Part shown: positions 4,993 to 35,034 of the stretch, in pieces
Position numbering within the stretch: the stretch's first letter is position 1
How the letters are laid out: each line of letters starts with the position of its first letter
DNA from: Geobacteraceae bacterium GWC2_53_11
GTDB lineage: Bacteria > Desulfobacterota > Desulfuromonadia > Geobacterales > Pseudopelobacteraceae
DNA: 48,865 nucleotides
NCBI GenBank assembly: GCA_001802645.1
Contig: MGZJ01000021.1
Span: 3,754-52,618, forward strand
Reading direction: 5' to 3'
Position numbers and translations under genes: made by a program
Notes under the pieces: model-generated
The model's input: the letters and a program-made list of their open reading frames with translations, nothing else
What the model was told of the DNA's origin: nothing
The model's database searches: none

Positions 4993-5008
4993 TGGCATTA
5001 AAGTTGCT
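4993..5008 (+). promoter_or_regulatory. sigma-54 (-24/-12) promoter
   Basis: TGGCATTAAAGTTGCT matches the consensus TGGCAYRNNNNTTGCW at all but one informative position, with GG at 4994-4995 and GC at 5006-5007, exactly 12 bp apart. Predicted start near 5019; the SDR start codon is at 5048. Arsenite oxidase genes of several Proteobacteria are known to be sigma-54 dependent under the AioXSR system, which fits. No aioXSR genes are in the window. Confidence 0.78.
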
Positions 5009-5047
5009 GATTACACACAAACATTCTGATATCAGGAGGATCAAAAG

Positions 5048-5815: not shown

Positions 5816-5908
5816 CCCTGGTAATCACTAATTGGCTGCTGGCCATTATCGTAAAAGTCAATAACACGGAACTTTGGGCAGATATCGCGAATTCCAAGGG
5901 GGTTGATC

Positions 5909-21110: not shown

Positions 21111-22867
21111 TTCACACCCCCGATTGCGCCAAACTTGCACAACTGGCGGCAGACATCACACCCCGTACAGAGCAGCGGATCAATATACGCCTTGCCTTTT
21201 TTGCTGCCATCCCCCGCCGGACGCCATTCAATGGCCGGACAGCCGATTTTCAGACAGGCGCGGCAGCCGGTACAGGCGTCGGCATCGACGGCGTAGACGG
21301 GCCCTTTCTGGAACACTTCTTCACGTTTGATCAACACGCACGGCTTGTTGGTAATGATTACGGACGGCTCGGGACGTTCCATCTCCTCGGCAATGACCCG
21401 TTTGGTTTCTTCCAGGTCAAGCGGGTTGATGATGCGGATGTGCTTGACGCCAAGCGCCTTGCAAAGGAGCGGAATCTGTACCGCGTTGGTCGGCTGATCC
21501 ATCAGGGTAAAGCCGGACGCCGGATTGTCCTGGCGGCCGGTCATGGCGGTAATGCTGTTGTCGAGGATAATCACCGTGGCCGGGGCATTGTTGTAGACCA
21601 TGTCCATGAGGCCATTGATGCCGGTGTGCAGGAAGGTGGAATCACCGATAACTGCCACAACCTTTTTCTTCTCCTCGGCGGAGACAACCTTGGTCACGCC
21701 GGTAGCCATGCCGATGGAGGCGCCCATGCAGACGCAGGTATCCATGGCGGAGAGCGGCGGCATGAAGCCGAGCGTGTAGCAGCCGATATCGCCGGTAACA
21801 TAGGCTTTCAGCTGGTTCAGCGTATAAAACACACCACGGTGCGGACAGCCGGGGCACATGTTAGGCGGACGGCCGGGAAGTTTTTCGGCGGCGGATTCAG
21901 ATGCCTGCGGAATCTTGAAGGCGGCGCGGAGACGGCCCGGTGTCAGTTCGCCGCACAGCGAGATGATTTCCTTGCCGATGGCCGGAATCCCCATGGCCTT
22001 GACCTGATCTTCGATAAACGGGTCAAGCTCTTCAATGACATACAGCACATCAACCTTGGCGGCAAATTCGCGGATCAGGTCGTGCGGAAGCGGATGCACC
22101 ATGCCGAGCTTCAGGGTCGAAGCGTTGGGGAGCACTTCCCGCACGTACTGGTAGCAGATACCGGCGGTGATAATACCGATGGAGGTATCGCGCATCTCCA
22201 CACGGTTGAACGGCATGGTGACCGCAGCCTTGGAGAGATTGACCAGGTTCTGCTCTACCAAGGGATGACGAACCTTGGCGTTGCCCGGAAGCATGACCAG
22301 CTTGGCCGGATTCTTTTCCAGTTTCGGCACCGGCAGACCGGTCACCCGTTCGCCCAGTTCGACAACTGATTTGCCGTGGGAAATGCGGGTACTGCTGCGT
22401 AGCATGACCGGTGTGTCGTACTGCTCGGACAGCTCGAACGCCAGGCGGGTGAACTCCTTGCACTCGCGCGAATCGGACGGCTCCAGCATCGGCACCTTGG
22501 CAAAGCGGGCATAGTTGCGGCTGTCCTGCTCGTTCTGGGATGAATGCATTTCCGGGTCATCGGCGGCAACCAGCACGAGGCCGCCCCGTACGCCGGTGTA
22601 GGACAGGGTAAAGAGCGGATCGGCCGCCACGTTGACGCCGACATGCTTCATAGTGCAGAGCGCCCGGCCGCCTCCAAACGAAGCGCCGATGGCGACTTCC
22701 AGAGCCACCTTTTCGTTGGGTGCCCAGGAGGAGTTGATTTCCTTGTACTGCAGGGTGTTTTCGAGAATCTCGGTCGAAGGGGTGCCGGGATAGGCACAGG
22801 CAACAAGGCAACCCGCTTCAAAAGCGCCACGGGCGATGGCTTCATTGCCGGATAGAATGGTTTTCAT
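21107..22867 (-). CDS. iorA: indolepyruvate:ferredoxin oxidoreductase alpha subunit
   Basis: Catalytic thiamine-diphosphate subunit, 586 residues. I chose the ATG at 22867 (MKTILSGNEAIARG) because AAGGA lies 9 bp before it; the frame continues to 22939 but without an RBS. The N-terminal half is a pyruvate-ferredoxin-oxidoreductase-like domain, followed by a TPP-binding domain with GDSTFLHTGINGLMDMVYN. The last 60 residues form a 2x[4Fe-4S] ferredoxin domain with CTGCRACLKIGCP and CTGCDVCRQLC. It heads the operon iorA-iorB-carbonic anhydrase behind a good sigma-70 promoter. Confidence 0.94.
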   Translation of the reverse strand: MKTILSGNEAIARGAFEAGCLVACAYPGTPSTEILENTLQYKEINSSWAPNEKVALEVAIGASFGGGRALCTMKHVGVNVAADPLFTLSYTGVRGGLVLVAADDPEMHSSQNEQDSRNYARFAKVPMLEPSDSRECKEFTRLAFELSEQYDTPVMLRSSTRISHGKSVVELGERVTGLPVPKLEKNPAKLVMLPGNAKVRHPLVEQNLVNLSKAAVTMPFNRVEMRDTSIGIITAGICYQYVREVLPNASTLKLGMVHPLPHDLIREFAAKVDVLYVIEELDPFIEDQVKAMGIPAIGKEIISLCGELTPGRLRAAFKIPQASESAAEKLPGRPPNMCPGCPHRGVFYTLNQLKAYVTGDIGCYTLGFMPPLSAMDTCVCMGASIGMATGVTKVVSAEEKKKVVAVIGDSTFLHTGINGLMDMVYNNAPATVIILDNSITAMTGRQDNPASGFTLMDQPTNAVQIPLLCKALGVKHIRIINPLDLEETKRVIAEEMERPEPSVIITNKPCVLIKREEVFQKGPVYAVDADACTGCRACLKIGCPAIEWRPAGDGSKKGKAYIDPLLCTGCDVCRQLCKFGAIGGVK

Positions 22868-22910
22868 CAGATGTATCCTTGGAGCGATCAGTTGGAGTAA
22901 ATAACGGCGG

Positions 22911-22939
22911 ACTATACTAAAAATGGCGTGATAATGCAA
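22911..22939 (-). promoter_or_regulatory. sigma-70 promoter of the ior operon
   Basis: On the - strand TTGCAT (22939-22934), a 17-bp spacer, then TATAGT (22916-22911). This puts transcription start near 22904 and a leader of about 37 bases before the iorA ATG at 22867. Confidence 0.65.
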
Positions 22940-22968
22940 TTTGTTTGAGAATCCAAGTAAAACAGGAT

Positions 22969-23083
22969 GTTATTTTGGGCCGGTATAATAAAACTATTTT
23001 CAGGTTAGGGCAATTGCCCTCTTGACAAAGTTTTATATGACCCCGTATGTATTGCTGAAACTACGTAGCAGGTTATGGCGTTT
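22969..23083 (+). repeat. direct repeat, left copy (flanks cassette array)
   Basis: Starts GTTATTTTGGGCCGGTATAAT and contains CTTGACA (23021-23027), CCCGTATG (23043-23050) and GGTTATGG (about 23071-23078). The same landmarks occur in the same order and spacing at 32250-32361; identity by eye is about 75%. TTGACA with a 17-bp gap to GTATGT could be a promoter. Nothing coding is visible in it. Confidence 0.7.
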
Positions 23084-23120
23084 TTGCAAAATTCGGAAAT
23101 GTTTTCAAAGTGAAGGAAAG

Positions 23121-23246
23121 TTTATAGATGTAGAAACCAGTTGATTTTGCGAAAAGTACGAAAGTATATATTTGTAGAAACTTCTTGGGGTTATAGATCT
23201 AGAAACTTGCTTCTACATCTATAAACTTGTTTCTACATTTAGAAAC
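23121..23246. repeat. cluster of TAGAAAC / GTTTCTA dyads
   Basis: Five copies of a motif near TTATAGATGTAGAAAC: 23121-23137 (+), 23165-23181 (+), 23191-23206 (+), 23211-23226 (inverse) and the palindrome GTTTCTACATTTAGAAAC at 23229-23246. Copies three and four form an inverted pair. Spacing is irregular, so it is not a CRISPR array. It occupies the otherwise empty DNA between the left direct repeat and the first cassette gene. Possible multiple operator or iteron-like site; function unknown. Confidence 0.65.
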
Positions 23247-23330
23247 CCGGCTCTAACCGGTGATTTACGAGTTGGCCGACGAACAGAAAGAAAATCGAGC
23301 AGTGTGGCGATTTGTTGGCGGAGGTGCTAA

Positions 23331-23753
23331 GTGGCGACAAAGAAGAAAACTAAAACCCTGCTGGATCAACTTTCAATTTCGGGCGGATGTTTCTTTGCGG
23401 GAATTCTTTGCATTTTATTTGGTTCTTCGTACCAAGGCGAATTACTTGGAAATGGAAGCGTCAATATCGGAAAAAACAGTGCACGCGTCCTTTTGGCTGG
23501 GAAAGACGCTCAGAACAATATCAACTTTTTCTGGGTCGGTGCAGTCGTTTTTTTTCTTGCCGCCCTCATTAATCTAATCGTTTCCGCACGTAGAGAGTTT
23601 AACACCCCTCAACCTTTCGGGGACTCCACCAATATGGTTATGATTTGCTCGAAGTGTGAAAAGCCGTTTTCGCTTGAGAGTTTGGAAAAGGCAGAATGTC
23701 CTGATTGCCAAGTTGGTTTGGTACAACTGAAAGGGTTTTACGACAAATCATAA
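23331..23753 (+). CDS. small membrane protein with C-terminal zinc ribbon
   Basis: Unrecognised 140-residue protein. GTG start at 23331 behind GGAGGTGC. A basic N-terminus (KKKTK) is followed by two hydrophobic segments (about 17-33 and 66-84) and a C-terminal zinc-ribbon pair CSKC and CPDC (about 106-125). It would sit in the inner membrane with the zinc ribbon in the cytoplasm. First gene of the cassette array; only 21 bp separate it from the next gene, so the two probably share a cassette. No function is claimed. Confidence 0.7.
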   Translation: MATKKKTKTLLDQLSISGGCFFAGILCILFGSSYQGELLGNGSVNIGKNSARVLLAGKDAQNNINFFWVGAVVFFLAALINLIVSARREFNTPQPFGDSTNMVMICSKCEKPFSLESLEKAECPDCQVGLVQLKGFYDKS

Positions 23754-23774
23754 GTATTTACTGAGGTTCAGCAA

Positions 23775-24200
23775 ATGGACGTTTTCGCAATTACATTGAT
23801 GGGAATATTTTGTAGTCTCCTCATATTCATTTCTTTTCTAATATATTTTGGTCAAAGCTCCAGAAAATGGCCATCCGCCGCAGGTAAACTCCTAGAATTC
23901 AAAGCAGAGCAAGTTCGATTTGTTTCAATAAAGGTGAAATATGAATATTTTGTGAATGGAGAAAAATATATCGGAAAGAGAATTAGTTTTATCAATCCGT
24001 TTTTCTCAACACTTGAGGAATTAAAATCAGATGAATTCTGCAGCCGGATCCAGCGAGAGGATTTTAACGTATTTTATCATCGTAAGTACCCTAAGATATC
24101 AACACTCAAAAGAGGTTACAACGAGTGGGGCGCAACAGTACTGGTCATATTGATGCTTCTATTTGGTGTTTTTGAGCTGATAAAAAATATCTATTTTTAG
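23775..24200 (+). CDS. DUF3592-like membrane protein
   Basis: A 141-residue protein with one membrane segment at each end (about 5-27 and 118-138) and a soluble beta-rich middle. The WPSAAGKLLEF motif, the following VKYEYFVNGEKYIGKRI block and the DFNVFYHRKYP block match the pattern of DUF3592 proteins, whose function is unknown. It starts 21 bp after the zinc-ribbon gene and is followed at 24203 by an attC-like box (ATCCAAC). Related pairs of small membrane proteins are common cargo in integron cassettes. Confidence 0.72.
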   Translation: MDVFAITLMGIFCSLLIFISFLIYFGQSSRKWPSAAGKLLEFKAEQVRFVSIKVKYEYFVNGEKYIGKRISFINPFFSTLEELKSDEFCSRIQREDFNVFYHRKYPKISTLKRGYNEWGATVLVILMLLFGVFELIKNIYF

Positions 24201-24202
24201 GA

Positions 24203-24254
24203 ATCCAACCCACTCGGCGGCACGCGGCCGCCGCTTTGCTCCGCCGCTTAGCCC
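24203..24254 (+). other. degenerate attC-like site 1
   Basis: ATCCAAC (fits RYYYAAC) at 24203-24209 begins two bases after the upstream stop codon, followed by a GC-rich inverted region (GGCGG...CCGCC with an inner GCGG/CCGC) and ending near CTTAGCC, where a consensus site would have GTTRRRY. The right box has lost its G, so the site may no longer recombine. Confidence 0.45.
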
Positions 24255-24299
24255 CAACCCCTTCGGACGAGAAATAATTATGAAAAAGGCGAAAAAGAA

Positions 24300-24602
24300 A
24301 TGACGTCCGAAAACCAAGAAAAGTCAAAGGATGAAAACGACGATGAAAAGGCCAAAGATTCTTTAGAAACCGAAATCAACGGGGCATATCAGAAACGGGA
24401 TGAGCTGTGGAGCCGGAATTGGTGCCCTTTTTGTGGGAGAACAGACTGTAAAAGCAAACTACACTTTTTGAAACTTTACACGTTACCAATGTCATCTCTT
24501 CCACCGAAGTATGCATTTCTTATGAGAGTGGTGCCCTTCGGCATCCTGTTGTTGCTCATAATAGGCGGGAAAATTCTGTATCTCATGTTCACGAAAAACT
24601 GA
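24300..24602 (+). CDS. small protein with CPFCGRTDC motif and C-terminal membrane anchor
   Basis: Unrecognised 100-residue protein. The first 35 residues are highly charged (Lys/Glu/Asp). A zinc-binding-like CPFCGRTDC lies at about 42-50, and a single hydrophobic segment (about 75-95) ends the protein, suggesting a tail anchor with the rest in the cytoplasm. The RBS is weak. Its stop codon is followed 15 bp later by the attC-like site at 24618. No function can be assigned. Confidence 0.6.
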   Translation: MTSENQEKSKDENDDEKAKDSLETEINGAYQKRDELWSRNWCPFCGRTDCKSKLHFLKLYTLPMSSLPPKYAFLMRVVPFGILLLLIIGGKILYLMFTKN

Positions 24603-24617
24603 GGCAAGGAACACAAT

Positions 24618-24689
24618 GCCCAACCACGTCGTTAGACGCCGCCCGCCCGAAAAGACCGGGCCTGCGGGTCAACGCCGACCCCGTTGGCC
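24618..24689 (+). other. attC-like recombination site 2
   Basis: Left box GCCCAAC (24618-24624), right box GTTGGCC (24683-24689). Between them CGTT-A-GAC-G-CCGC...CCCG on the left pairs with CCCG...GCGG-GTC-AACG on the right, leaving A24634 and G24638 as single unpaired bases on the left arm only. Unpaired bases on one arm are the hallmark by which integrases recognise the folded bottom strand. 72 bp, a normal attC size. Confidence 0.65.
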
Positions 24690-24715
24690 CAGAAACATAA
24701 CTCATATCCACAGCG

Positions 24716-25522
24716 ATGATATTCGGGACTTTAATGAAAAAGAAAAACATACAAAATAGACTGGTTGCGTTTATAGATATTTTAGGATTCTCACAAAGGG
24801 TGAAGAATATATCAACAACGAAAGACTTAAAGGACTTATATAACGATGTAGATCACGTCCAGAGAGAATTTGAAGTAGTTGTTAAGGACAAATCTGAAAA
24901 AGAGTATAGAAAAATGGCCGGCAAAGATGTCCTTGCCTTTTCTGATTGTCTAGTAATAAGCCTAGGTGCCGAAACGAAGTGGACCGACTCTGAAGGTTCA
25001 TTTGAAACATTTTTAGTTGAGTTTGAACAAATAGGTCTCGCGCAGATGCACTGCATTCAGAAAGGTATTTTCATAAGAGGAGGGATTGATATTGGTTGGT
25101 GGTATCACGACAGCCATAAGGTAATTAGCAGTGCTCTAGCAACGTCCTATGAACTTGAGGGGAAAGCTGATGTTCCGGTTATTGCACTGTGTAAAAAAAT
25201 TCATGATTATCTTAATGGACACCCCAATAAGGAAGCCTACAAGCACGACTTTGACCCACTAGAACTTCTTAGAAAGTACCACGACAAAAATATGGAATTC
25301 TGGTTCATCGACTATCTATCTATCTGCTTGAGGGCGCAGGATTTTTATGAAGATAGAGAATTTGTCTTTGAAGTGCATAAAAAACAGATTGAAAAGGCAT
25401 ATAGCAAAGCTAATACAACTAAAATAAAAAAGAAATACCGATGGCTATCAAAATATCATAACGAGATCCTTGCAGAACATGGGTCTGGATTCGCTAAACA
25501 CAAAATAGTATTAAAATCATAG
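24716..25522 (+). CDS. class III nucleotidyl cyclase-like protein (1)
   Basis: A 268-residue protein (alternative ATG at 24734). Its layout resembles a diverged class III adenylyl/guanylyl cyclase fold: VAFIDILGFS near 17-26 with Asp21 as first metal ligand, AFSDCLVIS near 74-82 with Asp77 as second, RGGIDIG at 121-127, and a following SSALATSYELE block corresponding to the G-x4-A-x2-LE segment. It shares this order with the gene at 26376 but little else. The C-terminal 80 residues are basic and helical. Cyclase-like proteins of this general type occur in anti-phage systems, but activity and product here are unknown. It begins 26 bp after the right box of the preceding attC-like site. Confidence 0.6.
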   Translation: MIFGTLMKKKNIQNRLVAFIDILGFSQRVKNISTTKDLKDLYNDVDHVQREFEVVVKDKSEKEYRKMAGKDVLAFSDCLVISLGAETKWTDSEGSFETFLVEFEQIGLAQMHCIQKGIFIRGGIDIGWWYHDSHKVISSALATSYELEGKADVPVIALCKKIHDYLNGHPNKEAYKHDFDPLELLRKYHDKNMEFWFIDYLSICLRAQDFYEDREFVFEVHKKQIEKAYSKANTTKIKKKYRWLSKYHNEILAEHGSGFAKHKIVLKS

Positions 25523-25533
25523 GTACAAAGGGA

Positions 25534-25574
25534 TGCCGGCCAAGAAACTGCCGGTCAGGCTCCTGGCGTTGGCA
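25534..25574 (+). other. degenerate attC-like site 3
   Basis: TGCCGGC (25534-25540) pairs with GCCGGTCA (25550-25557) with one unpaired A on the right arm, and GTTGGCA (25568-25574) takes the place of the core box. No left RYYYAAC box is evident. Position between two cassette genes supports the call more than its sequence does. Confidence 0.4.
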
Positions 25575-25591
25575 AAGATGAGGAAGACAGA

Positions 25592-26206
25592 ATGGACCCA
25601 CTTACGATATTAGGATTAATCCTCGGGATTCTGGGCATTGCCATAAGTATCGGCATAGCCTTCTGGCAAAATTCACGAGCAAAGAATGCGGAGGCAGAGC
25701 TGAACGGTATTCTATGTAGCTTGCCATCGCAGGTCCTTGACAACATGACAAGGCTTTTACAAAACAACCAATCTGAAACGTCAGGGTTATACGGAATGAT
25801 GAACTCCGAAAAAGTGCTCCATTCCAAATATGTTGATTTAGATGGAGATGAACAAGAAGAACTCATAGTTCAATATCCTTACGGTGCTCATGGCTCAGCA
25901 ATGCAGGTCTTCGGACTCCGAAATCGGGAGTTCAAATTCATTGCTGAACTCTTAACGAATACACCCTCTGGATTTATTGCTGAAGATATCGATAACGATG
26001 GCAGAATTGAGATTGTCGCCCACGAAACCTCAGAAGACTTTCCATTCGTACTGGGTCTGCGAGATGAGGTCTGGTACAGACTTGAGAGCAATCGATTTGT
26101 CGAGATCAAACGAACAAAACTGTATGAGCCGCATGATGTAGACCTAGCTTATGCTGATATAGATAAGCAAACCGAAGCGCTCTCAAAAAAAGGCCAAGCT
26201 GTTTAA
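25592..26206 (+). CDS. membrane-anchored protein with Ca-binding-like DxDxDG loops
   Basis: Unrecognised 204-residue protein with an N-terminal membrane segment (about 5-24) and two FG-GAP/VCBS-like loops, DLDGDEQEELIV near 82-93 and DIDNDGRIEIVA near 131-142, which resemble calcium-binding loops of beta-propeller repeats. With only two loops it is too short for a propeller. The ATG follows GAGGA with 7-bp spacing and lies 18 bp after the GTTGGCA core box, as expected for a cassette gene. Confidence 0.65.
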   Translation: MDPLTILGLILGILGIAISIGIAFWQNSRAKNAEAELNGILCSLPSQVLDNMTRLLQNNQSETSGLYGMMNSEKVLHSKYVDLDGDEQEELIVQYPYGAHGSAMQVFGLRNREFKFIAELLTNTPSGFIAEDIDNDGRIEIVAHETSEDFPFVLGLRDEVWYRLESNRFVEIKRTKLYEPHDVDLAYADIDKQTEALSKKGQAV

Positions 26207-26221
26207 GTTTCCGAATCGAGG

Positions 26222-26287
26222 CCAACTGGGAATGCCAACCATCGGCTTGTGCGGTGAAGCCCACACACACTCAGCCCAGTTGAACAG
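26222..26287 (+). other. attC-like site 4
   Basis: Left GGCCAACTGGG (26222-26232) and right CCCAGTTGAAC (26277-26287) pair over CAACTGGG/CCCAGTTG; the right core GTTGAAC fits GTTRRRY. A second box-like GTTAGCC is at 26321-26327. The inner stem is weak. 66 bp overall. Confidence 0.5.
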
Positions 26288-26375
26288 GGAATTTGGGGTC
26301 AGATCAATTTTGGGGTTCGTTAGCCATAAACCTGTCCAGGTTTTCCCAACTTTAAAAGTTATTGGAGGAATGACA

Positions 26376-27233
26376 ATGTATGTCGCATTTGTAGATTTAT
26401 TAGGATTCTCTTCTGCGGTGGAAAGTTTATCTGAAGCTGATGATGTTTCATTCGCCGATTTGGTTTCCGAAACGACGTCGTTGGGTTCAAAAACACCCTA
26501 TTCGTACCATTTATCCAGTAGTTCTGTTCGCAACCTTTACGACATGTACACAGAATTCCAGCGCGAATGTGAAAAGGCTGCTTGGGTTCTATCAGAATAT
26601 CATTCCCATGTCCGATTTTCACAAAAAATGTCAGCTCCAGACGCACAAGGAGATAACTTCTCCTACAAAGCTGTGGTTTTCTCGGATTCAATTTTTCTAG
26701 CGGCATCTTCACTCGAACCTGTCATCGACGCTGCTGGAGAACTAATCGCAAACCTTCTTTTAAAGAAAATTCCTAGTCGCGGTTCGATCGCCAAAGGGAG
26801 TTTTCGTACTTTCGAATGGAACTTAAAAACAGGGCAAGGGGCCTCATTTACAGCATGTGCACCGTTCCTTGGGTCAGGTGTGATACGAGCGTATCATACC
26901 GAATCGAAAGGTCCACGAGGGATTCGGCTTCTAATTAATAAGTCCTGCTGGCAAGATGTCCAAGCGCTAGACAGTTGGGCACTATTAAGCCTTTCTCCTG
27001 ATGAGATGTCAGAACACTGGGGTCATGAAGTAAATCTAGATTTATACGGACTGTCAGGAAATGCAAACATAACCCTTCTTCAGATGATGGCAGAAGAGCT
27101 TAGCAATCTGGTTCCTGACAACATAAAAGCTCGCCATTATGACCCTACCCTTTCTGCGTATTCTCGCATGGCCGCTGTCGATAGAGATCAACCGCGTCAA
27201 TTTACTCGATCTGATTGGCGTGATGAATTTTAA
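26376..27233 (+). CDS. class III nucleotidyl cyclase-like protein (2)
   Basis: A 285-residue protein from the ATG at 26376, chosen because GGAGG (26364-26368) lies 7 bp before it; the frame is open from 26232 but that extension would run through the attC-like site. YVAFVDLLGFS (Asp7), VVFSDSIFLAA (Asp104) and RGSIAKG (135-141), followed by FLGSGVIRAYHTES, repeat the order seen in the gene at 24716, consistent with a diverged class III cyclase-like fold with both metal Asp residues. No transmembrane segment. Partner effector unknown. The array thus carries two such proteins in separate cassettes. Confidence 0.58.
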   Translation: MYVAFVDLLGFSSAVESLSEADDVSFADLVSETTSLGSKTPYSYHLSSSSVRNLYDMYTEFQRECEKAAWVLSEYHSHVRFSQKMSAPDAQGDNFSYKAVVFSDSIFLAASSLEPVIDAAGELIANLLLKKIPSRGSIAKGSFRTFEWNLKTGQGASFTACAPFLGSGVIRAYHTESKGPRGIRLLINKSCWQDVQALDSWALLSLSPDEMSEHWGHEVNLDLYGLSGNANITLLQMMAEELSNLVPDNIKARHYDPTLSAYSRMAAVDRDQPRQFTRSDWRDEF

Positions 27234-27247
27234 GGAAAAGGAGGTGG

Positions 27248-27287
27248 CAGGTCTCCACCCGGGACAAATTTCATAGTTGGAGACCTG
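27248..27287. repeat. perfect 10-bp inverted repeat after the cyclase-like gene
   Basis: CAGGTCTCCA (27248-27257) and TGGAGACCTG (27278-27287). A second inverted pair, CTGACGCCT and AGGCGTCAG (about 27285 and 27361), overlaps it. There is no adjacent U-tract. It lies between the gene stop at 27233 and the intron end near 27403, in DNA where I see no gene. Confidence 0.6.
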
Positions 27288-27441
27288 ACGCCTATGTATT
27301 TTCACTATGGGAAGTAACAAGGAGAGGCTGTCAATTGGTCAACATTGAATACAAAGTGAAGGCGTCAGTCCTCGAAATTTGACATTTCGTAAAATGAGGT
27401 CCCAATCGGGTAGCCGGGGGTTTTTCTCCCCCAGCCCCCAC

Positions 27442-27473
27442 ACCACCCGGCATGCGGGTCCGCACCGGGCGGT
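27442..27473 (-). ncRNA. group II intron domain V
   Basis: On the - strand, arms ACCGCCCGG and CCGGGTGGT pair over nine positions with one G-U, followed by a TGCG-GACC-CGCA tip separated by a short bulge. Size (about 32 nt) and shape fit the catalytic domain V of bacterial group II introns. Confidence 0.8.
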
Positions 27474-27482
27474 TCGATAGAA

Positions 27483-28823
27483 TTACCGGGCCGTAGCCGG
27501 GTAATGGATCTTCACCCACAGGTCTTTGACAGATAGTAACCCTTGATCCTTCAGACATTTGTTGGTCAGACCGGTATGGGCGGCGAGTCGTCTTGACATC
27601 GCCCACGGGCCGCTTCTATTCAGGCCCGCTCGGATGGCGGTGCCAAGTTGTGTACCAAGCCTGAGAAGGTTCTTGATCTTGGTACGGCACCAGCGCCACT
27701 GTTTCCAGTAGCACAACCGTATTCTGCGCCGTATCCAGCCGTCTATCTCCGGGATTTCACGGTAATATTCCGAGATGCCGAAGTACCCCATCCAGCCACG
27801 GAGATATTGGGCCAGTTTGAACAACCGGTACTTCATGGAGACCCGCCAGCTTCTTCCGGTGTACTGCTTGACGCGGCGTCGGAATTCCCGGTATGCCTTG
27901 TCAGACCAGATGATGCGGGTTCCGCTGAAGATGAAACCGAGGAAATCAATGCGGGATGTTCTTGCTACCGCACTCTTGGTTTCATTGACCGTAAGCTTGA
28001 GTTTGTTCGTCAGAAAGGTTTTCATGCCTTCCATCACCCGATCACCGGCACGCTGGCTTTTGACCAGTATGACGAAGTCGTCAGCGTAGCGGACGAATTT
28101 GTGACCGCGTGTCTCAAGCTCTTTGTCTAGTGTGTCGAGCAGAATGTTGGCGAGGAGCGGCGAGAGCGGCCCACCTTGAGGAACACCCAGACGGGTCTTT
28201 TCCAGACGCCCGTTCACCTTCACCCCGGCTCGCAGGTACTTGCCGATCAAAGCTAACACCCGCTTGTCGTGAACTTTCCTACTCACCAGATGCATGAGTA
28301 GATCATGGTTGACCGTGTCGAAGAATTTGGCAAGGTCGATGTCCACGGCAATACGGTAGCCCTGCCGGATGTACTCCCGTACCTGACGGACAGCGTCTTT
28401 CGCTGACCGGCGGGGACGGAAACCGAAGCTTGATTCCGAGAAGTCCGGATCGAAGATCGGCGTCAACACTTGGGCAATGGACTGTTGGATCAGCCGGTCA
28501 AGTACGGTGGGTATCCCCAGCGGGCGGGTTCCGCCCGTTGCTTTGGGTATCTCCACCCGTTTAACCGGCAAGGGTTTGTAACTGCCTGTCGTCAGCGATT
28601 CGCGGATGGTTTTCCAGTGAGAGCGGGTATGGTCGGGGAATTGTTCGATGGTGATGCCATCGACGCCGGGTGCGCCTTTGTTAGCCCGTACCCGTTTCCA
28701 CGCTTGCTCCATGTTCGCACTGGAGAGTATCCGCTCCAGCAGGTGTTGCTCCGGGGTTGGCTGGTCAATGACGCGCTCCATGGGCATTCCCCCGGTCGGG
28801 TTCTCTATGTCATGAAAGCTCAT
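27483..28823 (-). CDS. ltrA: group II intron reverse transcriptase/maturase
   Basis: Intron-encoded protein of 446 residues from the ATG at 28823, which follows GGGGAGGAG; the frame is open to 28916 but that part lies in structured intron RNA. Reverse-transcriptase blocks are complete: GVDG near 53-56, RPLGIPTVLDR at 100-110, VDIDLAKFFDTVNHD at 160-174, GVPQGGPLSPLLANI at 213-227 and the catalytic YADD at 246-249. A maturase (X) domain with GWMGYFGISEYY and RRIRLCYWKQWR follows. No HNH endonuclease domain is present, as in class C introns. It is intact and may be active. Confidence 0.94.
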   Translation of the reverse strand: MSFHDIENPTGGMPMERVIDQPTPEQHLLERILSSANMEQAWKRVRANKGAPGVDGITIEQFPDHTRSHWKTIRESLTTGSYKPLPVKRVEIPKATGGTRPLGIPTVLDRLIQQSIAQVLTPIFDPDFSESSFGFRPRRSAKDAVRQVREYIRQGYRIAVDIDLAKFFDTVNHDLLMHLVSRKVHDKRVLALIGKYLRAGVKVNGRLEKTRLGVPQGGPLSPLLANILLDTLDKELETRGHKFVRYADDFVILVKSQRAGDRVMEGMKTFLTNKLKLTVNETKSAVARTSRIDFLGFIFSGTRIIWSDKAYREFRRRVKQYTGRSWRVSMKYRLFKLAQYLRGWMGYFGISEYYREIPEIDGWIRRRIRLCYWKQWRWCRTKIKNLLRLGTQLGTAIRAGLNRSGPWAMSRRLAAHTGLTNKCLKDQGLLSVKDLWVKIHYPATAR

Positions 28824-29306
28824 TGGGGCTCCTCCCCTGTTCTTCGTTCGGCCCTTCGGCGGGGTAAGGCTTCCCGGCTCTCTGTGCCGGGCTTGTTTCC
28901 AGCCGTCCAATCGCAAGGGGACGGCGTCCGACGCCTACTATGGCTTTTGCTGACTTCTGCTCCATCACGGCTACCTTTACGGTGCCGCGCTTTTCTTGCG
29001 AAACGCAAAGTGGAGCAGATCTCCCCGGATAAGAACGTGAACTGTCGCTACACAACCGCAGCATTTACCATTTCTCCTGAATCCGTGGACTTCGTCATGT
29101 TGTGCTGACTTGTCCGGATGATGGCCTTGTATGCTGTTTCTGTTCGTCGGCTCATAGCTTTGCGCTCGGGCTTCCTCCAGACCTCTCCTCGCGGAGACGC
29201 CCTTGCCTTCGGCTAGTACTTGTTTTACCCTGTCTTCGCGACAGTGACTGGATTCTCGTACAGGGGACTTGCACCCCATAAGTTCACGCCCATGACGGGC
29301 GTACAC
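28824..29306 (-). other. non-coding 5' part of the group II intron
   Basis: These 483 bases correspond to ribozyme domains I to IV before the maturase start. They contain the conserved 5' region and many short complementary arms. Reading frames on the + strand here (and one - strand frame across 28977-29615) have no recognisable protein content and are by-products of structured RNA. Confidence 0.75.
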
Positions 29307-29364
29307 TCTCGTGTGGACGCGGACGGCAAAAACCCGCCGCCGGTCACACTCATACACGTTGAAC
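29307..29364 (+). other. attC-like site 5, split by the intron
   Basis: Right core GTTGAAC (29358-29364) fits GTTRRRY. The stem GTGTG-G-AC-G-CGG-A-CGGC pairs with GCCG-CCG-GT-CACAC, leaving three single unpaired bases on the left arm. The expected left box would be the AATCC/TCCCAA-like sequence on the other side of the intron (about 27396-27402). The TPR gene starts 9 bp after the core. Confidence 0.6.
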
Positions 29365-29372
29365 GAGGAATA

Positions 29373-30128
29373 ATGAAAGACGGATTTTTCAAAAAAGAAG
29401 CGAAAATAATGTTGTGGCTTTACGTGATGATTCCAGTAATCGGAATTGTTGCTGCCGTTGTCATTCCGTATTTGGCAAGGCATAGCGAGAGCCCCCTGTC
29501 GTTCGAAGAGCTTATGAATCGGGGTGAGCAGTACACGGCTAAAGGGGACATTAAGAAAGCTATCGAAACATACAAAAAGGCAGTAGTACAAAAGTCTGAC
29601 GATTCGAGAGCACATGAAGCATTAGGTAATGCATATTACGAAATGATGGGAATCACAATTCGCCGATCAGCGGCCAATTCCGAGGAATGGGAGCAGATAA
29701 AAAAGCAAGGCCAAGAATTAAGTGGGTTGGCAATTGAGGAATACACGAAGGTTCTGCAAAAGAATAAAGACAACTGGAAAGTACGCTATAGAGTCGCGAC
29801 AGAGCTTTTCAATCAAAAGAAATACAAAGAAGCTATTGAAGAATATCAGCAAACAATACAGTCAAAACCTGAATACGCAACTGCATACTCAATGCTCGCA
29901 AGTGCATATCTCGGAGTTGGTATGCATGTCCTTGCTTTGAAAAACATTGAGAAGGCTCACTCGCTTGACCACGACGATGAGTACTATTATTTCGACCTCG
30001 GCAAAGCCTACTATTTCATAAAGGACAATGACAAAGGGTTTGAAATGGAAGCAAGGCTAAAGGCCATGAAATCCAAGTACTACCAAGAGCTCTTGGACTA
30101 CAGATTTTCCAAAAAAAAAGAACCGTGA
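29373..30128 (+). CDS. membrane-anchored TPR-repeat protein
   Basis: A 251-residue protein from the ATG at 29373 behind GAGGA. One membrane segment near 14-36 is followed by tetratricopeptide-like repeats, e.g. GDIKKAIETYKKAVVQKSDDSRAH-type sequence near 62-85 and KYKEAIEEYQQTIQSKPEYATAY near 155-177. Such proteins usually act as scaffolds. The start codon lies directly after the attC-like core box, and the stop is followed 8 bp later by the next attC-like site, so this is a textbook one-gene cassette. Specific function unknown. The longer frame from 29220 would run back through the intron. Confidence 0.8.
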   Translation: MKDGFFKKEAKIMLWLYVMIPVIGIVAAVVIPYLARHSESPLSFEELMNRGEQYTAKGDIKKAIETYKKAVVQKSDDSRAHEALGNAYYEMMGITIRRSAANSEEWEQIKKQGQELSGLAIEEYTKVLQKNKDNWKVRYRVATELFNQKKYKEAIEEYQQTIQSKPEYATAYSMLASAYLGVGMHVLALKNIEKAHSLDHDDEYYYFDLGKAYYFIKDNDKGFEMEARLKAMKSKYYQELLDYRFSKKKEP

Positions 30129-30135
30129 CAGCGAT

Positions 30136-30194
30136 GTCCAACAAGACAGAAGCAGCGGCCAAAAAACCGCCGCTGTTCTGCCAAGCCGTTGACC
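30136..30194 (+). other. attC-like recombination site 6
   Basis: 59 bp, the classical attC length. Left box GTCCAAC (30136-30142), right box GTTGACC (30188-30194). Left arm CAGAA-G-CAGCGGC pairs with GCCGCTGTTCTG on the right with G30152 as the only unpaired base, and the loop is A-rich. The best-formed site of the array. Confidence 0.75.
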
Positions 30195-30219
30195 GGAATA
30201 AAGAAAGATCAGGATTGAA

Positions 30220-31545
30220 ATGGGCGAGCTAACGAAGAAACAACATCGTATTTTAGATTTTGCCCTTGATCAGTTATTCAATACAAAATCTATTATTGCA
30301 CCGGCATCAATAAAAGACTTTTCAACCCAAAATGTTCTTTCACGAATACTCAGACTGGAGGATAAACGGACTATCCTCCTCACGGATAGTGGTCTTAGCC
30401 AACTAAGCAGAATTGTTACAACAATCGATGAAGCTAATGTTTTTGATGGTCTGGCTAACTACTCTGATATTTGGAGCGCCTGTCATTGCACTATTGAAAT
30501 GCTGTTTTCAAAGGGGATGAGACCAGACAACGGGTTAGAGTTACTAGAATTACTATGTAACAAGCTAGGGTCTGAGATAGACAATCACACTTACGCAGTC
30601 CCGTTATACGGCCTCAAAATGGAAGGAATTGATGCCATAACTATTGGAACGATGAAAATTGTTAGTTCACCTCAATCAGATCTTGAAACTTCTGGCGTAA
30701 AATACAACCATGTAAACCTTCCAAATATACTGAAATCAACGAGCGATTATCTTTGGCTTATAGGTTCCGAAAGAGGTACGCCGCGAGTCTCACAAGACAA
30801 GTTTAGTGAGCAAGCTTTACTGGCTGTTGGTCTGCTCGCAGTACATGCTGGTGCAATATATGATAGAGGAGCTTCAGTATTTCGGATAGGTGTAGTGCTG
30901 TCCCCGGAAGATGCCCATGGCAGAGCAGTATGGTTTTCATGGAAAGACAACAATCCGCAACTAACGGAGCATCACACCTTCATCAGGTCTCAGCCTTTTG
31001 TCGTTGATACTTTAGTGTCTAAAGAACTTAAATCAAACACCATCCTTACTCGCGGGTTTCAGATACTCAAGTTAAATGATAAAAACGAAATTGAGGACGC
31101 AATCACCAAAGCAATCTATTGGTACTCAGATGCACACCGTGATACCGCGCTCTCCATGAAATTCATTAAATTCTGGAGTTGCGTTGAGACGTTCTTCTCA
31201 ATGGACAAAAAAGACATTACCAGATCAGTATCAATTGGCCTGACTACCGTCTTGGTCTTCGGAGGCTACAAGTTCGTGGCAGAAGCAGAATATATCTCAT
31301 TCAAAAAACGAGTAGCCAAATTGTATGACCTCAGATCTCATGCGGTGCACAGAGCATCATACAAACATGTCACTGAGCGTGACGTTGCCGAACTCAGCCA
31401 ATGGGTTGCCTGGATGCTTATCAATATGATTTCTTTCGTCGAGCGTGGTTATACTCAGATCAAGAAAATAATGGCTATATCTGAGCAACTCGATAAGAAG
31501 TGCGTCGCTGAATCAAAAATGTCAGCAATGGGGCCATCCGTTTAA
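30220..31545 (+). CDS. Apea/HEPN-like protein with RX4H motif
   Basis: A 441-residue soluble protein. The C-terminal third resembles Apea-like HEPN domains: helix FIKFWSCVETFFS (about 315-327), SVSIGLTTVLVF, and YDLRSHAVHRAS, in which Arg372-x4-His377 matches the RX4-6H ribonuclease motif of HEPN toxins. The N-terminal two thirds have no recognised domain. HEPN proteins act in toxin-antitoxin and anti-phage systems, and the cassette setting (start 26 bp after a core box, attC-like site after the stop) fits a defence cargo, but RNase activity is inference. Confidence 0.62.
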   Translation: MGELTKKQHRILDFALDQLFNTKSIIAPASIKDFSTQNVLSRILRLEDKRTILLTDSGLSQLSRIVTTIDEANVFDGLANYSDIWSACHCTIEMLFSKGMRPDNGLELLELLCNKLGSEIDNHTYAVPLYGLKMEGIDAITIGTMKIVSSPQSDLETSGVKYNHVNLPNILKSTSDYLWLIGSERGTPRVSQDKFSEQALLAVGLLAVHAGAIYDRGASVFRIGVVLSPEDAHGRAVWFSWKDNNPQLTEHHTFIRSQPFVVDTLVSKELKSNTILTRGFQILKLNDKNEIEDAITKAIYWYSDAHRDTALSMKFIKFWSCVETFFSMDKKDITRSVSIGLTTVLVFGGYKFVAEAEYISFKKRVAKLYDLRSHAVHRASYKHVTERDVAELSQWVAWMLINMISFVERGYTQIKKIMAISEQLDKKCVAESKMSAMGPSV

Positions 31546-31569
31546 AATGGAATAATCTAAAAATGCGAT

Positions 31570-31608
31570 CCCCAACAAGGCCGGTGGACACCGACCGAGC
31601 CGTTAGAT
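31570..31608 (+). other. short attC-like site 7
   Basis: CCCCAAC (31570-31576), an inverted region GGC-CGGT / ACCG...GCC, and a right core GTTAGAT (31602-31608) fitting GTTRRRY exactly. At 39 bp it is shorter than known attC sites, so it may be partly deleted. Confidence 0.45.
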
Positions 31609-31617
31609 GAAAAATGA

Positions 31618-31656
31618 TTGACTTAAAACAACCATCGGCGTACGGTTAAACGTACG
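31618..31656 (+). promoter_or_regulatory. toxin-antitoxin promoter with twin CGTACG operator
   Basis: TTGACT (31618-31623), 17-bp gap, TACGGT (31641-31646). Two identical 6-bp palindromes CGTACG at 31639-31644 and 31651-31656 overlap and follow the -10 region. YefM/Phd antitoxins bind paired TGTACA-like hexamers, so this is a likely autoregulatory operator. Confidence 0.55.
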
Positions 31657-31673
31657 AAATGGAGGTTATTTAA

Positions 31674-31916
31674 ATGACAACGCTATCAGCAACAGAAGCA
31701 AGAAAATCCCTTTATAACCTTGTCGATGATGTTGCTTTATCACATGTCCCGATTCAGATTGTTGGCAAACGGCATTCAGCCGTTCTCATCTCAGAAGAAG
31801 ATTGGCGTGCAATTCAGGAAACATTGTATCTCACATCAATTTCTGGCATGCGAGAATCCATCAAGAGAGGTCTCAAAACCCCAGTATCCGAGTGCAGTGA
31901 GGAACTTGCATGGTAA
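31674..31916 (+). CDS. Phd/YefM-family antitoxin
   Basis: An 80-residue antitoxin. The N-terminal ATEARKSLYNLVDDV block and the following VPIQIVGKRHSAVLISEEDW block are the family's DNA-binding fold; the C-terminal part that would wrap the toxin is ESIKRGLKTPVSECSEELAW. GGAGG (31661-31665) precedes the ATG. It overlaps the toxin gene by 7 bp, the usual arrangement. Located in the last cassette of the array, where toxin-antitoxin modules are known to stabilise large arrays. Confidence 0.88.
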   Translation: MTTLSATEARKSLYNLVDDVALSHVPIQIVGKRHSAVLISEEDWRAIQETLYLTSISGMRESIKRGLKTPVSECSEELAW

Positions 31917-32176
31917 GCTGGCAACTTGTTTTTACCAAGCAAGCGCAAAAAGATGCAAAAAAGATCGCGAATTCCGGGTTAAAGCCGCAAGCCGAACGAC
32001 TACTCGAAATTATCAAAGAAAACCCCTTCAAAAATCCCCCTCCATACGAAAAACTTGTAGGCGATCTGTCAGGTGCATATTCCCGTAGAATCAATATTCA
32101 GCATCGACTGGTTTATGAGGTTTTGGACAACATAAAGACTATAAAGATTATCCGAATGTGGACGCATTACGAGTAG
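31910..32176 (+). CDS. yoeB: YoeB/Txe-family mRNA interferase toxin
   Basis: Ribosome-dependent RNase toxin of 88 residues. Family catalytic residues (E. coli YoeB Glu46, Arg65, His83, Tyr84) have counterparts at Glu47, Arg66, His86 and Tyr87; the C-terminus ends THYE as in the family. The sequence is intact. Translation is coupled to the antitoxin. It ends 12 bp before the final attC-like site. Confidence 0.88.
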   Translation: MVSWQLVFTKQAQKDAKKIANSGLKPQAERLLEIIKENPFKNPPPYEKLVGDLSGAYSRRINIQHRLVYEVLDNIKTIKIIRMWTHYE

Positions 32177-32188
32177 CCGAAGCTGATC

Positions 32189-32256
32189 ATCCAACTAGCG
32201 CTCAGACCATGTCGCGGCAAAAAGCGCCGCACAGGTCAAGCGCTGATCCGTTATTT
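32189..32256 (+). other. terminal attC-like site 8
   Basis: Left box ATCCAAC (32189-32195). Arm AGCGCT-C-AGACC-A-TGT-C-GCGGC pairs with GCCGC-ACA-GGTC(A)-AGCGCT, leaving three unpaired bases on the left arm and an A/A mismatch near the first. The right core is GTT (32250-32252) followed by ATTT, not RRRY, as expected where the last cassette joins ordinary chromosomal DNA. Confidence 0.72.
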
Positions 32257-32361
32257 TTGCCCGGTATAATACAACTATTTTTCAGATTTGGGCATCTGTT
32301 CTCTTGACAAATATTAATATGAGCCCGTATGAACGCTTAAGAAACTTTTGCGCGTTATGGG
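32250..32361 (+). repeat. direct repeat, right copy (flanks cassette array)
   Basis: Begins GTTATTTTTGCCCGGTATAAT, with CTTGACA at 32303-32309, CCCGTATG and GCGTTATGGG, matching the left copy at 22969-23083. TTGACA with a 17-bp gap to GTATGA may be the promoter of the downstream histidine kinase (start codon 32430). Confidence 0.7.
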
Positions 32362-32429
32362 AAGCATAACGCTGAAATGGCATGATATGTAACCCCCGTG
32401 GGTGTCAATACCGACTAGAGGCTGTTACC

Positions 32430-34436
32430 GTGAAAATCACACTGAGCAAACGCCCCACCAAGGACGAGTTGATCCTTGAACTGCACGAGTCGAAGTTGAT
32501 CGAAAGAGAATATCGACTGCTGCTTGATGAGTCGAGTGACCCTATTTTTGCCTTTTATCCTGACGGTCGCTACCGTTATGTAAATCAGGCATTTGCAAGC
32601 GGTGTCGGTTACGACCGTAACGCCATCATTGGCAATAAAATATGGGACATTTTCTCCAAAGATGAAGCAGACAAGCGCTTTGCCTTGGTCAAGTGGGTTT
32701 TTGAAAACGGACAGACCAGAATCATCGAAGTGCGCGTACCCCGCCCGGACGGAGACCGCTTCTATGTGACCACAGTCAAGCCGATAGTAGACAGCGACGG
32801 GGCTGTAGTTACTGTTATCTGCATTTCAAAGGACATTACCGAGCACAAGCAAGGTGAAAAAGCGCTTCAGGAAGGCAAAGACCTTCTTGAGGAAATAATC
32901 GAACTGAGCCCTATCTCAATGGCTATCGTTACTATGGACGGCACTATTGAGCAAATCAATCGCCGCGCTATTGAAACATTCGGGTATTCCCCGAACGACA
33001 TTCCAACTATGGAACAATGGTGGGTACTGGCATATCCCGATGAATTGTACCGTGCCGAAGTGATTGCCAAATGGATGGAGCTTGTCGGAAAAGCCATTGC
33101 CGAAAAGAGCGAAATCGAACGCCGCGAATACCGGGTCACCTGCAAGGATGGTGCGGTCAAGACGGTACTTATCTTTGGCATCCCGGTTACAGGCAGGGTT
33201 TTCGTGATGTTTGACGACATCACTGAGCGCAAACGCGCCGAGGAAGAACGGCTGCAACTGGAGCAGCAATTCCTGCAAGCGCAGAAACTGGAGAGCCTGG
33301 GCATAATGGCGGGCGGCATCGCCCACGACTTCAACAATCTGCTGCAGTCGATTCTTGGCAATATGGAACTGGCAGTGCGATCTCTTCCACAGGACGCAGC
33401 CCCACATACCTATATCACCAGTGCCGTGAACTCTGTCCAGGCTGCTGTTCATCTTACCAATTTGATGTTGGCATATGTCGGCAAGGGTTTTCTTGCCAAA
33501 AAGGTTCTGGATCTGAACGAACTGGTCAGGGTGAATGCCGATATGCTGAAAACAACCGTCGGTTCCGCAGTATCACTGGAATTGTCCCTCTCACCGGATT
33601 CACCAAAAACAATGGCGGATGAAGCTCAAATTCAGCAGGTGATCATGAATCTGCTGACCAATGCAGCTGAATCCATTACGGAACAACCAGGCTTTGTCAG
33701 GCTTGCTACGGGTCTTCAAAACTGCGATCACACCTTTCTGGCAGCCAGTCTGCTTGACAAGAAACCGGAACCTGGACGCTACGTATTTCTGGAAGTCAGC
33801 GATACCGGCTGCGGTATGTGTGCGGAAACCATGGAACGGCTCTTCGATCCGTTCTTTACGACAAAATTTTTTGGGCGTGGCCTCGGAATGTCGGCCGTTA
33901 TGGGGATCATGAAGTCGCACAACGGTGCTTTGTTTGTCCAGAGTGCTCCAGGGAGCGGTACAACCTTCAAGGCATTTTTTCCCGCATCCGATGCAACGCT
34001 ACCGGGCATATCACCGCAAGAAAAAGCACCCTCTGTTGAAAACAGCATAATGACAAAAGCGCCTTTGTCCGGCGTGGCACTGGTGGTGGATGATGAAAGG
34101 AATGTTCTGCGGACATGTAAGAAGATGGTTGAACTGTGCGGTTTTACGGTAATTACCGCCCGTGATGGCATTGAGGCGGTTGCCCGATTCCGTGAACATA
34201 CCGAAGAGATTGATATCGTTCTCCTTGACCTGACCATGCCGAATATGGACGGGATCGCCGCAATGAACGAAATCTACCGTATCAGACCTAATGTCAAGGT
34301 GATCCTCTCCAGCGGTTTCAACAAGGATGAGCTGAATAGCCGCATCACCGGCCAGGCCCCTTCCTGCTTCATCCGCAAACCATACAGCCTGACCGTGCTG
34401 GAAACAGAGCTCCGAAGGGTCATGGTGACAGAATAA
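32430..34436 (+). CDS. PAS-domain hybrid histidine kinase
   Basis: Cytoplasmic sensor kinase of 668 residues. I set the start at GTG 32430 because GAGG lies 8 bp upstream; an in-frame ATG at 32382 lacks a site. Domains in order: PAS (about 25-135), PAS (about 155-265), HisKA with His299 in GGIAHDFNNLL, HATPase (NLLTNAAES, DTGCGM, GRGLGM) and a C-terminal receiver with phospho-acceptor Asp600 in LLDLTMPNMDG and KPYS. No membrane segment, so it senses an internal signal through PAS. No response regulator gene is adjacent. Its C-terminal half closely resembles that of the kinase at 37236-39752. Confidence 0.92.
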   Translation: MKITLSKRPTKDELILELHESKLIEREYRLLLDESSDPIFAFYPDGRYRYVNQAFASGVGYDRNAIIGNKIWDIFSKDEADKRFALVKWVFENGQTRIIEVRVPRPDGDRFYVTTVKPIVDSDGAVVTVICISKDITEHKQGEKALQEGKDLLEEIIELSPISMAIVTMDGTIEQINRRAIETFGYSPNDIPTMEQWWVLAYPDELYRAEVIAKWMELVGKAIAEKSEIERREYRVTCKDGAVKTVLIFGIPVTGRVFVMFDDITERKRAEEERLQLEQQFLQAQKLESLGIMAGGIAHDFNNLLQSILGNMELAVRSLPQDAAPHTYITSAVNSVQAAVHLTNLMLAYVGKGFLAKKVLDLNELVRVNADMLKTTVGSAVSLELSLSPDSPKTMADEAQIQQVIMNLLTNAAESITEQPGFVRLATGLQNCDHTFLAASLLDKKPEPGRYVFLEVSDTGCGMCAETMERLFDPFFTTKFFGRGLGMSAVMGIMKSHNGALFVQSAPGSGTTFKAFFPASDATLPGISPQEKAPSVENSIMTKAPLSGVALVVDDERNVLRTCKKMVELCGFTVITARDGIEAVARFREHTEEIDIVLLDLTMPNMDGIAAMNEIYRIRPNVKVILSSGFNKDELNSRITGQAPSCFIRKPYSLTVLETELRRVMVTE

Positions 34437-34467
34437 TTTACATCTGAAAAGATGATAAGGTTTATGT

Positions 34468-35034
34468 ATGAACATCACCGCACTCATCACCATAACCCTT
34501 GCGATAATCCTGCAGTCGCCCTGTCCGTCACACGCCGAAAACCATCCGCCGCCCGCAGCCGCTATGGCCCCCTCCCCTGTGATCACCCATGTCATCGAGA
34601 TCAGCATGAGCCGCAACCTGTTGACACTGTACGAAATAGAAGATGGCGGCAATAGATCGGCCATTGCCGAATACCCGGTCGGCTCCGCCGTCACGGGGCT
34701 TAAAACCTATCCGCTTGGGGTCGGCAAAGTAACCGGGATTTACTTCAATCCCTGGTGGTATCCAACCCCCTATTCCCGCCAGGTATTCCGGGAACGCGGC
34801 ATCATCCTTCCCGCAGCAGTGCCGCCCGGTGATCCGCTCAACTACATGGGGCCATTCAAGATTGCCCTGTCGCACCGGACGTTCAAGGGAGCCATCTACC
34901 GGATCCACGGCAACAACAACCCGAAACGGGTCGGCAAACGGGTGACTGGGGGCTGCTTCGTTATGGACAACAGAGACGGCCTGACCCTGGCTCATACAAT
35001 CAAAGTCGGCACCCCGGTCACCATCCTCCCCTGA
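34468..35034 (+). CDS. L,D-transpeptidase (YkuD domain)
   Basis: Secreted cell-wall enzyme of 188 residues with a signal peptide (about 1-23). The YkuD catalytic motif is present: His147 in IHGNN and Cys163 in RVTGGCFVM. Such enzymes make 3-3 peptidoglycan cross-links or attach proteins to peptidoglycan. A weak AAGG site precedes the ATG, 31 bp after the histidine kinase, so co-transcription is possible. The substrate is not predictable. Confidence 0.88.
   Translation: MNITALITITLAIILQSPCPSHAENHPPPAAAMAPSPVITHVIEISMSRNLLTLYEIEDGGNRSAIAEYPVGSAVTGLKTYPLGVGKVTGIYFNPWWYPTPYSRQVFRERGIILPAAVPPGDPLNYMGPFKIALSHRTFKGAIYRIHGNNNPKRVGKRVTGGCFVMDNRDGLTLAHTIKVGTPVTILP

Follow-up and report, generated by a model that had tools for sequence, protein, structure and literature searches.

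Integron gene cassettes that lie apart from an integrase are known as CALINs, that is, clusters of attC sites lacking an integron integrase, in the terms of one published account (PMC8618304). According to the part of the IntegronFinder 2.0 description that deals with attI, such sites are poorly described outside class 1 and are not detected by the program (PMC9024848). Group IIC-attC introns, as a further source characterizes them, lie opposite to the cassettes, use the attC hairpin as 5′ exon, and are known in CALINs too (PMC7923331). Here we analyze a 48,865-nucleotide stretch of Geobacteraceae bacterium GWC2_53_11 (GenBank GCA_001802645.1, contig MGZJ01000021.1, positions 3,754 to 52,618, forward strand; "the window"), in which the segment from 23271 to 32256 ("the span") is a true integron gene-cassette array. 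The element is very probably an integron with an attI (23120 to 23273) and no integrase, carrying four model-backed attC sites plus one attC half. An attC array with a kept attI and no intact intI amounts to a CALIN that retains its attI, and integrase-less platforms of this kind form a widespread class, to which the window array belongs.

attC sites in a single orientation

A preliminary description made from the sequence alone had proposed a cassette array without integrase, to be checked by a covariance-model search for at least three attC sites in one orientation. Our attC covariance model, R1, was trained on 27 sites from relatives, with zero rows from the window genome. Its source loci came from the intI genes of the order as found with TIGR02249 (18 stretches beside intI, with 14 added later). 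Selection of candidate hairpins by YAAC/GTTR ends gave 36 sites, versus 8 in a reversed-sequence control (484,561 bases), and nine of the 36, doubtful or overlong, were removed by eye before training. In the 27-site alignment with a hand-named structure, 66 cells had changes on both sides, versus 29 in shuffles. Run on the whole window with filters off, R1 gave 15 matches at E ≤ 10, the top five all on the + strand and within the span. The attC sites, with two weaker candidates, are as follows.

24618-24689, +: attC 1 (R1 56.7 bits, E 1.4e-10)
30136-30194, +: attC (R1 43.2 bits, E 1.4e-7)
32189-32256, +: last attC (R1 25.4 bits, E 0.0012); the array ends at 32256
31570-31608, +: short attC (R1 20.7 bits, E 0.013)
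24203-24253, +: possible decayed attC, not above background (R1 9.2 bits)
26233-26285, +: possible attC, not above background (R1 10.3 bits)

The top match outside the span (position 22564, 11.1 bits, E 1.8) is background, and the odds of four matches at E < 0.02 all sharing one orientation within 18% of the window are about 7e-5. The proposed array is thus borne out by a model built from relatives' sites, which places four attC at E < 0.02 in one orientation inside the span; the three sites previously singled out as well formed (24618, 30136, and 32189) are R1's top three matches. Two other statements held in part. Not every gene is followed by a site, the matches at 24203 and 26233 being at background and the gap between ORF4 and ORF5 having no R1 match listed in the window scan. 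Location of all genes on one strand is true of the cassette open reading frames (ORFs), all on the + strand, but not of a reverse transcriptase gene at 27483-28916, which is on the − strand.

Genome-wide, R1 scored 150 of 2,574 first-look candidates, so that other arrays may be missed. At E ≤ 1 this search listed at least 10 matches, three in this array, two on contig C91, and one each on C53, C36, C56, C41, and C54; a further, stronger attC (38 bits) on C54 was absent from the list. Matches elsewhere in the window genome include C36 86960, C56 18018, C41 54714, and C54 77769.

An attI of five dyads ahead of the first cassette

Immediately before the first cassette, in a region overlooked by the preliminary description, lies an attI with an ordered set of inverted repeats. 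It was modeled with R2, which combines sequence and symmetry, makes no use of intI, and has nine training rows.

23120-23246, +: attI, five 18-bp dyads of the GTTTMTA-N4-TAKAAAC type (R2 107 bits, the window being one of the nine training rows)
23120-23137, 23164-23181, 23189-23206, 23209-23226, and 23229-23246, +: attI dyads 1 to 5
23247-23273, +: attI core region, CCGGCTCTAACCGGTGATTTACGA followed by GTT; inter-array homology stops here and the first cassettes differ

The dyads start 44, 25, 20, and 20 bases apart, the last of them 42 bp before the GTT of a core that reads TCTAAC..ACGA/GTT. The start of the span, 23271, is exactly this core GTT (23271-23273), where crossover would take place. 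The TAGAAAC repeat clusters of the window and C91 are 83% identical over 162 columns, the same leader and architecture adjoin intI in several relatives, and nine attI examples align without gaps across 110 columns. The half-sites covary (0.319 versus 0.154 when shuffled, a value reached by 0 of 500 shuffles; slid versions gave at most 0.111), and their sequence varies by lineage (GTTTMTA, GCATMTA, and others) with both arms changing together. Arrays are homologous up to the core GTT and diverge from the first cassette on, except in the recent copy L050/L117; this is as expected for an attI. On homology and architecture, the attI adjoins the first cassette in the window.

Absence of intI and the small protein ORF124

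Among 141 genomes of the order, 59 have intI by TIGR02249 at E ≤ 1e-60, 57 of them over the cut-off. The window genome gave eight matches, none over the cut-off, and such matches occur in all 14 control genomes. Profile and homology searches found no intact intI in the window or the genome assembly, in agreement with the array having been described as lacking an integrase; the sole trace is a 62-residue C-terminal remnant (residues 408-469) on C34. There (C34 1-1620, L053), the intI end adjoins an IS91-like fragment (IS91 by eye), and nearby hairpins are attC-like by eye, yet not listed by R1.

Many integrases of the order have a conserved N-terminal extension of ~155 residues ahead of the TIGR02249 domain (e.g., L035 1135-2544); one relative's long IntI has 469 amino acids (aa). 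Often encoded between the long intI and attI is a protein of ~124 aa, ORF124, which is invariant at ten positions over 66 relatives (66 of 71 without stop) and has a weak DUF5710 match (E 0.0011, below the cut-off). Within the best 80 of its 251 relatives, the named genomes are Geobacter, Geotalea, Geomonas, Pelotalea, and Desulfonema magnum, accompanied by metagenome bins called Nitrospirae, Acidobacteria, and Rokuibacteriota. Its AlphaFold model (pLDDT 88) shows a pair of small alpha/beta domains, for which structure comparison returned no telling relative.

Dyad scores of ≥23 were obtained at 12 of 16 long-intI loci with ORF124 (three at exactly 23; at one of the 16, G047, the extension is only a separate weak segment), at none of five long-intI loci without ORF124 (one more is cut), and at none of 15 short-intI loci. 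Shuffles were 15 simple ones per locus, and because the short-IntI loci L019, L020, and L021 exceed theirs by 1 to 2 points, the score itself was used. Dyads are also present at L241 (score 25) and L244 (score 28), which have a short IntI plus ORF124. The dyads therefore track ORF124 rather than the longer integrase.

The window genome has kept one copy of ORF124, on C53, as part of a third platform (C53 36496-38030; L163 2497-4031) in which an intact ORF124 is joined by five dyads, one cassette region, and an attC. This attI, found by script and not listed by R2, has the 44/25/20/20 spacing of the window with a different half-site (dyad score 24). The second array of the genome, on C91, has a leader 83% identical to that of the window and three attC.

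attI platforms with and without intI across the order

R2 gave matches in 62 of the 141 genomes of the order (132 rows, or 131 places after removal of one reverse shadow). Of these places, 18 are within 3.5 kb of intI, all divergent and at a distance of 851 to 1403 bp measured to the integrase-domain match (the long intI has its start codon ~0.46 kb nearer); the intI open frame is at least 450 aa at 15 of the 18. Divergence was a criterion of the script, and a by-eye pass of both lists revealed no other attI-intI arrangement. The remaining 113 places are not near intI. Sixty of these are on the + strand, 46 with at least 4.5 kb of contig upstream, versus nine linked attI on + counted by hand from the same lists. 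Where there is enough contig to judge, integrase-less attI thus outnumber linked ones about five to one, a ratio in which only intI neighbors at E ≤ 1e-60 count, fragments do not, and contig fragmentation can make a linked attI appear orphan. At 1e-60, 32 of the 62 attI-bearing genomes are without intI. When R2 was run on a 198-genome phylum sample, its matches fell in two genomes, both of this order, and an attI of this build was found in none of the 193 that are listed outside it.

At least one attC match (E ≤ 1) was present in 17 of 20 fetched orphan loci; of the other three, L125 and L128 are cut by the contig end and L116 has no attC match. All 65 attC matches (58 in the 17 orphans, four in the window, three on C91) are on the strand and side predicted from the attI, and tblastn detected no intI upstream (~4 kb) of 19 arrays. 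Dyad pairing has a median of 28 of 35 in the 21 orphan sites (three score only 12, 15, and 22) and of 27 in 11 linked sites, a likeness due in part to selection since both sets come from dyad-rewarding searches. At random positions in the same loci the mean is 11.5 and the maximum 22 among 3800. Orphans with small insertions or deletions score down to 12 and 15 at the fixed dyad positions; the figures are reported for all 21 orphans, the 16-orphan subset without L110, L111, L113, L114, and L115 having a median of 29. One genome, G091, has two GTTT-class and two GCAT-class orphan attI (L120-L123) and no intI at 1e-60.

A group II intron next to an attC half

The − strand reverse transcriptase belongs to a group II intron that the preliminary description did not mention.

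27404-29306, −: group II intron, most likely class IIC; its ends are where homology stops
27483-28916, −: intron-encoded reverse transcriptase/maturase (TIGR04416 over cut-off; 27486-28823 scanned)
29307-29364, +: attC half (L″-L′-R′) beside the intron (R1 16.4 bits, E 0.12, 29310-29357)

The RNA core is matched by Rfam RF02001, RF00029, and RF01998, and homology to most full-ended copies of the intron stops at 27404 and 29306. The attC bottom-strand hairpin is the 5′ exon of this oppositely oriented intron, and it is from the hairpin exon that class IIC is deduced. In other copies with a readable right exon, that exon is attC-like by eye in 8 of 10 (L270 is doubtful, L271 is not), and attC matches occur at 8 of 14 loci carrying other copies. 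The TTGT/T target was not seen, the window exon ending in GAGA on the bottom strand, and the attC R″ was not found across the intron here or in the other copies seen.

Cargo genes

23331-23753, +: ORF1, 140 aa; membrane segment and CxxC pairs by eye, no library match over cut-off
23775-24200, +: ORF2, 141 aa; weak DUF3592, below cut-off
24300-24602, +: ORF3, 100 aa; no library match
24716-25522, +: ORF4, 268 aa; class III nucleotide-cyclase fold (model), phrog_23933
25592-26206, +: ORF5, 204 aa; FG-GAP_3 repeat over the Pfam cut-off, N-terminal membrane segment by eye
26373-27233, +: ORF6, 286 aa; second phrog_23933 member (E 2e-5)
29373-30128, +: ORF7, 251 aa; TPR protein
30220-31545, +: ORF8, 441 aa; HEPN-like by eye only
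31674-31916, +: Phd/YefM antitoxin
31910-32176, +: Txe/YoeB toxin (TIGR02116 over cut-off)

The cyclase-like and toxin-antitoxin genes noted previously are supported. Both the toxin and the antitoxin models are over the cut-off for the Txe/YoeB pair, and ORF4 and ORF6 belong to one phage family without known function (phrog_23933). ORF4 has no Pfam match; its structure model predicts the class III cyclase fold. Compared with solved structures, the profile of the ORF4-ORF6 family ranked adenylate cyclases first, weakly (7 of 8 rows, best E 0.098). D21 and D77, which we take to have a role in cyclases, are invariant in the ORF4 family alignment (A8). Class III cyclases usually carry an Asn/Arg transition-state motif, at the position of which the ORF4 family reads ALxxAYxLE, so that any cyclase activity would be putative. 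The earlier assignment of ORF8 as Apea/HEPN-like found no backing, as the protein has no Pfam or PADLOC match; an RSHAVH sequence was seen in it by eye. Nor does anything show a defense function for the cargo, previously regarded as typically anti-phage: PADLOC models gave only weak matches and no complete known anti-phage system.

Genomic setting

In two relatives, iorA and nadB are neighbors, ~235 bp apart. In the window, 12.3 kb separate iorA on the left (its position backed by iorB and nadB matches and an ORF) from nadB (35140), and this block comprises, in order, a repeat, the attI, the array, a repeat, a histidine kinase gene, and an L,D-transpeptidase-like gene.

22969-23049, +: left copy of an 82-bp direct repeat (83%); the alignment begins GTTATTTT
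32250-32331, +: right copy of the 82-bp direct repeat, beginning with the R′ core of the last attC, GTTATTTT
32382-35034, +: PAS histidine kinase and L,D-transpeptidase-like gene, the rest of the 12.3-kb block

The repeats flank the array, and their start coincides with the GTT in the core of the last attC (32250); no repeat this long was found in any other of the 19 arrays. In L153 (G078:C100, ~3964-6223), of the same genus, a homolog of the kinase (83%) comes directly after an attI, partly decayed, and one short gene; the kinase may travel with integrons. At L154 (11860-14449), also of the same genus, the iorA-nadB gap holds a different insertion with a 650-residue gene, so this gap is possibly a hotspot.

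Proposed mechanism and alternative explanations

The cassettes would have been captured singly at GTT 23271 by a long IntI of the Geobacterales type folding the attC bottom strand, an enzyme that may have worked either in cis, prior to the loss of intI, or from a different locus. The dyads most likely bind a dimeric protein, whose part would be to assist IntI or to control the leader and for which ORF124 is the best candidate. The group II intron would have come later, targeting the attC bottom strand. The assembly contains no intact intI, and the array is accordingly expected to stay frozen as long as no IntI is brought into the cell. Orphan attI may more generally be served in trans by IntI. 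We tentatively propose, with confidence clearly short of even, that Geobacterales carry satellite integrons (attI and cassettes, no integrase), several per genome and copied as units, which one long IntI would serve in trans together with ORF124, a small attI-binding protein reading lineage-specific dyads. On this view, the window genome would have three such platforms, the window array among them.

Several points weigh against the main explanation. The number of attC pairs changed on both sides was 10, versus 9.5 in shuffles, although other measures do exceed theirs. No convincing attC separates ORF1, ORF2, and ORF3, or ORF4, ORF5, and ORF6. No sigma-70-like promoter was found on the + strand across 22850-23400, a consensus search at the leader giving one match, on the − strand, where shuffles give 1.1. 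R2 was trained on the attI of both the window and C91, which score as they do by construction. With 91 contigs and a completeness of 96.5%, the assembly could lack an intI. Finally, the putative dyad-binding role of ORF124 is drawn from its co-occurrence with the dyads.

The strongest competing explanation is that a once complete integron lost intI and ORF124 in place, the orphans being independent decayed remnants and the array dead; we give it a chance not far below even. In L112, judging by coordinates, some 84 bp from the start of intI survive together with an almost complete ORF124; parts of ORF124 remain in L111, L118, L119, L120, and L122, giving 6 of 19 arrays with traces of it, which makes deletion one route to orphans. 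Also in favor of this explanation, the left borders of orphan attI loci vary, and the intI end on C34 sits beside an IS91-like fragment. Orphan dyads, however, score no lower than linked ones, subject to the selection noted above. Moreover, L118 and L119, in one genome, have in common a shortened ORF124 and attI, after which their flanks differ, and L117, which has its border 72 bases before the second dyad, matches the intI-linked attI in its own genome at 95% identity and continues into the same first-cassette start; these patterns indicate that some orphans are copies and not in-place remnants.

It is somewhat unlikely that the dyad cluster is an operator, for instance for ORF124 autoregulation, and no part of the recombination site. 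The dyads do follow ORF124 and not IntI length, and in several loci the 3′ end of ORF124 touches or runs into the first dyad, but the dyads hold a fixed distance (20-bp phasing, with GTT 42 bp past the start of the last dyad) despite the loss of ORF124. Much less probable is insertion of the cassettes by an IntI acting elsewhere into a secondary, attG-like site, with no true attI and the repeat from GTT 32250 marking the target. Off-target insertion is a stated route to CALINs in one source (PMC8618304), and the core of the last attC is precisely where the repeat begins; this explanation is already disfavored by the leader, which in several genomes has homologs in the attI regions next to intI. 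An ordinary operon, or a genomic island, whose hairpins arose by chance would fit the single strand of the cargo genes and can practically be dismissed, contradicted as it is by the attC scores and by an intron that abuts an attC half.

Comparison with known systems

The array resembles a sedentary chromosomal integron in its attI, attC sites, and cassette order and differs from it in being without intI. The relatives themselves differ from that type in an integrase ~155 residues longer N-terminally than TIGR02249 and in the frequent presence of ORF124 between intI and attI. The intron resembles group IIC-attC introns in its orientation opposite to the cassettes and its attC hairpin 5′ exon, and differs from them in having neither R″ on the other side nor the TTGT/T target. 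ORF4 is modeled with the same fold as class III adenylate/guanylate cyclases and differs in having no Pfam match and ALxxAYxLE at the motif.

Integrase-less cassette arrays are easily taken for debris, and on the IntegronFinder 2.0 account no part of integrons outside class 1 is described less well than attI (PMC9024848). A search for attI independent of intI ties such platforms to a small uncharacterized protein, ORF124, and makes the question of whether CALINs are dead a testable one: does an IntI encoded at one locus insert cassettes at an attI that lies in another part of the genome? Like a CALIN, the window array has its attC sites (four at E < 0.02, and a half) all in the same orientation and no intI nearby; unlike one, it keeps a recognizable attI whose five-dyad architecture is common to many loci. 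As a plain CALIN the array would be ordinary; what sets it apart is the kept attI and the class of platforms that it reveals.

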